Both the position numbers and the translations under genes were made by a program. 34,915 nt of DNA from Bacteroidales bacterium (lineage in GTDB: Bacteria; Bacteroidota; Bacteroidia; Bacteroidales; UBA1715), in the NCBI GenBank assembly GCA_012519815.1, contig JAAYPM010000022.1, positions 1-34,915 on the forward strand, read 5' to 3'. The notes under the pieces are model-generated. The model did not search any database, was not told where the DNA came from, and saw only the letters and a list, made by a program, of their open reading frames with translations. Below, piece by piece: positions 27,729-29,890 of this stretch (positions are counted from its first letter, which is position 1; the number at the start of each line of letters is the position of its first letter).

Positions 27729-28013
27729 ATGACAAAGGCAGATATCGTAAATGAAGTATCGAAAAAAACAGGAATCGAAAAAGTAATAGTTCAAAAAACT
27801 ATTGAAGCATCAATGGAAACAATCAAAGAATCTTTAACGCAAGGTAACAATGTGTATTTGAGAGGATTTGGTAGTTTTATTGTTAAAAAACGTGCTAAGA
27901 AAACAGCAAGAAACATTTCAAAAAATACAACTATTATAATTCCGGCGCATAATGTTCCTGCATTTAAACCTGCAAAAACATTTATTAATTCGGTAAAAGA
28001 TAACGTAAAATAA
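27729..28013 (+). CDS. HU family DNA-binding protein
   Basis: MTKADIVNEVSKKTGIEKVIVQKTIEASMETIKESLTQGNNVYLRGFGSFIVKKRAKKTARNISKNTTIIIPAHNVPAFKPAKTFINSVK. Confidence 0.96.
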   Translation: MTKADIVNEVSKKTGIEKVIVQKTIEASMETIKESLTQGNNVYLRGFGSFIVKKRAKKTARNISKNTTIIIPAHNVPAFKPAKTFINSVKDNVK

Positions 28014-28017
28014 AATC

Positions 28018-28023
28018 AGGAGG
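28018..28023 (+). promoter_or_regulatory. Consensus Shine-Dalgarno AGGAGG
   Basis: AGGAGG 8 nt before ATG at 28032; other gene starts in the window lack such a motif. Confidence 0.8.
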
Positions 28024-28031
28024 AATATAAT

Positions 28032-28121
28032 ATGCCGAGTGGAAAAAAAAGAAAGCGTCACAAAATAGCTACCCATAAAAGAAAAAAACGTCTTAGAAAA
28101 AATAGACATAAAAAGAAATAA
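28032..28121 (+). CDS. 29-aa AURKAIP1/COX24-domain (bS22/mS38-like) small ribosomal-protein candidate, not in the supplied ORF track
   Basis: Translation MPSGKKRKRHKIATHKRKKRLRKNRHKKK; strong RBS; resembles the very short Bacteroidota AURKAIP1/COX24-domain proteins and mycobacterial bS22 in its KKRxx(x)KxxxHKRKKRLRKxRxKKK pattern. Confidence 0.88.
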   Translation: MPSGKKRKRHKIATHKRKKRLRKNRHKKK

Positions 28122-28144: not shown

Positions 28145-28182
28145 TATTAATCCTTTGTTGCTTCTGCTTCAAAGGATTAATA
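28145..28182 (+). other. Perfect 13-bp inverted repeat (RNA hairpin candidate)
   Basis: TATTAATCCTTTG - 12-nt loop - CAAAGGATTAATA between the 29-aa gene and RNase E/G; no T run after it. Confidence 0.7.
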
Positions 28183-28333: not shown

Positions 28334-29890
28334 GTGAATAAAGAAATAATCATACGAAGCCAAGAATCCAATATAGATATTGCTCTCGTTGAAAACAATC
28401 ATTTAGTTGAATTAATTCGTAATCAAACAGATACACCGCAATTTTCAGTTGGAGATATATATATTGCGAAAGTTAAAAAAGTTATATCTGGACTTAATGC
28501 GGTATTTGTTGATTTAGGATATGAAAAAGATGCCTTTTTACACTATCATGATTTAGGTCCACAATTCAGCTCTCTTTCTGCTTTATTAAAAGATCTTATT
28601 GGCACAAAACCAATAAAAGCATTCGAAAAAAATGAACGCTTAGCAGATATTGACAAAAATGGCAATATTGCAGAGGTGCTTGAATCGGGGCAACATATTC
28701 TTGTGCAAATTTCAAAAGAACCTATTTCTACAAAGGGTCCACGACTGTGTTCCGAAATATCAATTGCTGGACGAAATATAGTTCTTTTACCTTTTTCGAA
28801 TAAAGTTTCTATTTCTCAAAAAATTGAAACACCCGAAGAAAAAGCTCGTTTAAAACGTATTGTTCGTGCACTTATACCACCAAACTACGGCGTAATTGTA
28901 AGAACCGCTGCCGAAGGAAGTACAATTACCGACATAGAACTCGAAATTCAAGAACTCGTAAAAAAATGGGAAAACGCATTACGAAAAATTCGAAAATTCA
29001 AAAATCAAACACCTCATCTTATTGTAAGTGAAATAAGTAGAACATCAGCATTGCTTCGAGATATTTTTACGGTGGAATTTAACAATATACTTACCAATGA
29101 TGCAGAACTTAAAGATGAGTTACAAGAATATATTACAACTATTGCTCCCGAACGAGCAAAAATTGTAAAACTATACACAGCAACGCCTCCCATTTTTGAA
29201 CAATTTGGAATTGAACGCCAAATAAAAAGTTCGTTTGGGCAAACTGTTCCTGTAAAAAATGGTGCATATCTTATTATTGAAAAAACAGAAGCACTTCATG
29301 TAATTGATGTAAATAGTGGGAATCGTACCAAGTTTGAAAAAGATCAAGAGTCCAATGCGTTTGATGTAAATAAACATGCAGCCATAGAAATTGCACGACA
29401 AATTAGACTGCGTGATTTAGGTGGAATTATAATTGTTGATTTTATTGACATGCGTACCACTGACAACAAACAAAAGTTGTTTGAAACGCTGAAAGAAGCT
29501 ATGTCGCACGATAGAGCAAAACATAATATTCTTCCGCTCAGTAAATTTGGGCTTATGCAAATAACTCGGCAACGAGTACGCCCTGAGCTTAAATTAAATA
29601 CCAATGAAGTTTGTCCAACATGCAATGGTTCTGGAAATATTTCTCCTTCTATTAACATTATGCATCAAATTGAGCACGATTTACGACATATAACAAAAGT
29701 GCTTAAAATTAAACATCTTACTATAAAAGCACATCCGTTTATTGCTGGATATATTTCAAAAGGAGTATTTTCTTTATTGCAAAAATGGAAATTTTTATAT
29801 TCATTTTCTATTCGCACCCATGCTATGAGCAGCTATAATTTTCTTGAATATACGTATCATACAAAAGACGGAAAAAAGATTATTTTGTAG
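28334..29890 (+). CDS. Ribonuclease E/G family protein
   Basis: GDIYIAKVKKVISGLNAVFVDLGYEKDAFLHYHDLG (S1), GQHILVQISKEPISTKGPRLCSEISIAGRNIVLLPF, ALHVIDVNSGNRTK, DLGGIIIVDFIDM, FGLMQITRQRVRPEL, CPTCNGSG. GTG start at 28334. Confidence 0.95.
   Translation: MNKEIIIRSQESNIDIALVENNHLVELIRNQTDTPQFSVGDIYIAKVKKVISGLNAVFVDLGYEKDAFLHYHDLGPQFSSLSALLKDLIGTKPIKAFEKNERLADIDKNGNIAEVLESGQHILVQISKEPISTKGPRLCSEISIAGRNIVLLPFSNKVSISQKIETPEEKARLKRIVRALIPPNYGVIVRTAAEGSTITDIELEIQELVKKWENALRKIRKFKNQTPHLIVSEISRTSALLRDIFTVEFNNILTNDAELKDELQEYITTIAPERAKIVKLYTATPPIFEQFGIERQIKSSFGQTVPVKNGAYLIIEKTEALHVIDVNSGNRTKFEKDQESNAFDVNKHAAIEIARQIRLRDLGGIIIVDFIDMRTTDNKQKLFETLKEAMSHDRAKHNILPLSKFGLMQITRQRVRPELKLNTNEVCPTCNGSGNISPSINIMHQIEHDLRHITKVLKIKHLTIKAHPFIAGYISKGVFSLLQKWKFLYSFSIRTHAMSSYNFLEYTYHTKDGKKIIL

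Follow-up and report, generated by a model that had tools for sequence, protein, structure and literature searches.

The window, by which we mean the whole stretch of 34,915 nucleotides that was analysed, carries a very short frame between the genes for an HU-family protein and for RNase E/G (rng), read in the same direction as both. The earlier note had placed an unlisted 29-residue Arg/Lys-rich gene here; its translation was exact, and profile matches identify both neighbours as it named them. The locus comprises the following features:

27729–28013, + strand: gene of an HU-family DNA-binding protein, upstream of the short gene (Pfam PF00216, Bac_DNA_binding, E 1.4e-26)
28018–28023, + strand: Shine-Dalgarno (SD) sequence AGGAGG of the short gene (−10.3 kcal/mol against the 16S rRNA tail of a family member; GGAGG in 14 of 14 family genomes)
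28032–28121, + strand: gene of 29 codons, predicted to encode bS22 (exact translation, whole-length PDB matches, conservation in the phylum, mostly silent changes)
28145–28182, + strand: hairpin after the short gene, the probable end of an HU–bS22 transcript (fold z −2.7; stems in the family)
28334–29890, + strand: gene of RNase E/G (rng), downstream of the short gene (NCBIfam TIGR00757, E 2.1e-125)

The frame at 28032–28121 translates into MPSGKKRKRHKIATHKRKKRLRKNRHKKK, 29 residues followed by TAA, and its Lys and Arg content (59%) and length fit what is expected of the bS22 type (about 28–33 residues, over half of them Lys or Arg). Since its composition is of low complexity, the region is AT-rich and 1.02 Mb of the genome holds two further short ORFs that are basic, one can suppose that a Lys/Arg-rich ORF arose by chance in an A-rich gap and is no gene at all. 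However, 83–100% identity is kept in 58 of the 60 genomes of the order sampled around the source genome, the synteny is invariant and homologous chains are present in ribosome structures. The codon changes point the same way: relatives that differ at 11–22 of the 87 bases show 5–17 silent and only 1–3 replacing changes, and THKRKKRL and NRHK form an invariant core. Moreover, among 4604 ATG frames of 25–40 codons in the same 1.02 Mb, this is the only one that combines at least 50% Lys and Arg with an SD. The conservation and the PDB matches led us to drop the chance reading, which retains practically no probability, and the 29-residue gene is confirmed as real.

The gene is also widespread, being found in 289 of 297 genomes across Bacteroidota, nearly always as one match per genome both there and in the 60 nearby genomes. 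HU lies directly upstream in all 53 fetched loci, nearly all of them from the same order as the source genome, and wherever the contig reaches far enough, at 51 loci, RNase E/G follows without exception. Two of the checks proposed in the earlier note, conservation in related genomes and HU–rng synteny, bear it out. At two loci outside the class (L160 and L202), a sequence resembling the start of a tRNA gene follows bS22 in place of rng. No match, even by profile (best E 1.0), was obtained in the nearly complete genomes G206, G254 and G258, which are all three of one genus, nor, in the profile search, in the nearly complete G286, G334 and G346, three of another. These are apparently lineage losses, so bS22 is not required everywhere.

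A search of all solved structures supports the identification of the product as a small-subunit ribosomal protein, bS22 of the Bacteroidota/spirochaete type. Three distinct chains were matched, each over its whole length: 7jil_5 from the Flavobacterium johnsoniae ribosome (E 2.3e-10), 9i5v_10, described as “AURKAIP1/COX24 domain-containing protein” (E 4.4e-10), and 8fmw_V, bS22 of the Borrelia ribosome (E 3e-6). The matches are stronger with a 16-sequence profile than with the single sequence. Chain 7jil_5 is labelled 30S S22, and in some entries 50S L38; its structure is that of Jha et al. 2021, as cited in PMC10085706. It comes from the same phylum and aligns end to end with the predicted protein, 26 of the 29 residues being identical, and the two differ by three replacements (I12V, L21A and K23A) and one extra C-terminal K. 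The Borrelia burgdorferi protein (PMC10618245) is of the same length class and shares the frame MPxG...THKRKK...RKNRHKK, although it belongs to another phylum, starts with GUG and is less similar in sequence. bS22 is a known ribosomal protein carried by most Bacteroidota, not a discovery. The earlier note had named it correctly, F. johnsoniae and Borrelia bS22 being the closest solved chains, and had called its role in the ribosome an inference, while published structures already establish this role for the phylum.

The proposed resemblance to AURKAIP1/COX24 stands as a structural link through the bS22 pocket and fails as a Pfam sequence match. Pfam and NCBIfam searches with the single protein gave no match, including the COX24_C model (PF08213, AURKAIP1/COX24; curated cut-off 23 bits) that the earlier note had named as a check. 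This model matches weakly in 10 of 16 relatives (best E 0.0014), none of them over the cut-off, and it exceeds the cut-off in none of 99 phylum genomes; AURKAIP1/COX24 is therefore a link of structure here and not of sequence. The same holds for the kinship with mycobacterial bS22 and mS38, for which structure and not sequence comparison speaks. In a single hhalign comparison, the Bacteroidota bS22 profile met actinobacterial bS22 with a probability of 32% (36% identity over 25 columns, E 0.00049), the mycobacterial query being identical to a PDB chain, and actinobacterial chains were not among the matches of the profile search of PDB. The bS22 proteins of Mycobacterium smegmatis and Cutibacterium acnes (PDB 5o61 and 8crx) nevertheless occupy the same ribosomal pocket (PMC10618245, PMC10085706), and an analogous pocket is filled by mitochondrial mS38 (AURKAIP1/COX24) and eukaryotic eL41 (PMC10618245). 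mS38 is much longer than the protein encoded here, and neither mS38 nor eL41 gave a sequence match to it or to its profile in the PDB searches.

One pocket is shared by F. johnsoniae, Borrelia and mycobacterial bS22, and in Borrelia the protein contacts h2, h27, h44 and h45 of 16S rRNA and H68 of 23S rRNA (PMC10618245). In C. acnes the site is the same and the bridge runs through 23S H67 (PMC10085706). In these relatives bS22 is a bent helix that adds a subunit bridge near the decoding centre. By analogy, the protein of the studied organism would be a very basic component of the small subunit, placed in the h2/h27/h44/h45 pocket, where contact with H68 (as in Borrelia) or H67 (as in C. acnes) may provide the same bridge. 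We infer the same placement here because of the 26 residues identical to the F. johnsoniae chain. A basic peptide could, on the other hand, work mainly outside the ribosome, either in the nucleoid or in RNA degradation together with HU or RNase E/G, or as an antimicrobial. The fixed linkage to HU and rng would suit the former role, and the latter recalls the finding that C. acnes bS22, as a free peptide, inhibits both the growth of bacteria and translation in cell-free systems (PMC10085706). Nevertheless, gene linkage by itself does not demonstrate function, inhibition was assayed with peptide added from outside, and the closest homologues are located in ribosome structures (PMC10618245). We consider an extra-ribosomal role very improbable; judged by its homology, the gene almost certainly encodes bS22, a protein of the ribosomal pocket as in relatives.

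The protein would be made from a joint transcript of HU and bS22, closed by the hairpin that stands ahead of rng. In 12 of 14 family genomes the hairpin site can form a stem of at least 10 pairs without a break, as against 9 of 120 shuffled sequences, and the stem sequence differs between the genera of the family while the pairing is kept. A simple terminator scan did not call the hairpin at 28145–28182, and no known RNA families were found around the gene. Most simply, the hairpin is the terminator of the HU–bS22 unit, though it may instead be part of the 5′ leader of rng.

The SD is the least ordinary part of the locus, because the ribosomes of Bacteroidia largely ignore such signals: bS21, bS18 and bS6 keep their anti-SD sequestered, and an SD stands before few genes (PMC9976891). 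The “full Shine-Dalgarno” that the earlier note had listed as routine is indeed present as AGGAGG, 8 nt ahead of the ATG and 4 nt past the HU stop codon. A 16S gene was not found in this assembly and two exact 16S-tail patterns gave no match in the family genomes; the tail was taken from one family member, where it carries CACCTCCTTTCT. With 17 nt of this tail the pairing energy given above was obtained. GGAGG precedes bS22 in all 14 family genomes (L001, L002, L004, L005, L007, L008 and L034–L041, which represent four genera and are not independent samples), with −9.3 to −11.1 kcal/mol for a 10-nt tail, and in none of 84 mock windows. Of the remaining members of the order 6 of 45 have it, and outside the order 22 of 60 members of the phylum do. 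Among the long ORFs of this genome (1.02 Mb of fragments), 6 of 723 have an SD of −7 kcal/mol or stronger before the first ATG, as against 12 of 723 mock windows, so these ORFs show no SD use above chance. The one new detail reported here is this family-wide conserved SD of bS22 in a genome that otherwise makes no general use of SDs, as would be expected of a gene read by ribosomes whose anti-SD is free. Its strength, calculated with RNAduplex, remains below the approximately −13 kcal/mol reported for the rpsU control with another program (PMC9976891).

In the Bacteroidia, rpsU is the documented exception that has an SD, and in F. johnsoniae it is the only gene with an obvious one; replacement of a bS21 tyrosine by alanine in that species raised translation from strong SDs (PMC9976891). 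The residue changed in that study is retained here as the tyrosine at position 54 of bS21, according to sequence comparison. In contrast to F. johnsoniae, the SD of the studied genome stands before bS22 and not before rpsU (L054, G000:C8; −0.1 kcal/mol). Most other family members have a weak to moderate SD before rpsU, with AGGAG in several, and rpsR is without GGAGG across the family. In the screen of Bacteroidia for ribosomal genes with an SD (PMC9976891), bS22 is absent from the main text. It may be speculated that in this family ribosomes whose anti-SD is free, such as immature 30S subunits or those lacking bS21, translate bS22 in preference, and that the SD of bS22, instead of that of rpsU, couples bS22 supply to small-subunit assembly. 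We offer this coupling tentatively and hold it to be rather unlikely. To a simpler view, that the conserved GGAGG is an inherited sequence or an ordinary aid to initiation and has no regulatory meaning, we give an even chance. The dependence among the 14 family genomes agrees with this simpler view, as do the SDs before bS22 in some members of the phylum outside the order. It accounts less easily for the persistence of GGAGG while spacing and flanking bases change, for SD-like sites before long ORFs being no commoner than in mock windows, and for the lack of GGAGG before rpsR in the family.

Recognising bS22 mainly mends the annotation of genes that fall under size cut-offs; the B. burgdorferi gene, too, had been unannotated (PMC10618245). 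If its SD is used, bS22 would join the ribosomal protein genes controlled through the free anti-SD.

A strong SD, GGGGAGG, also precedes the gene of a uL5-like product in this genome (L097:18083, + strand).
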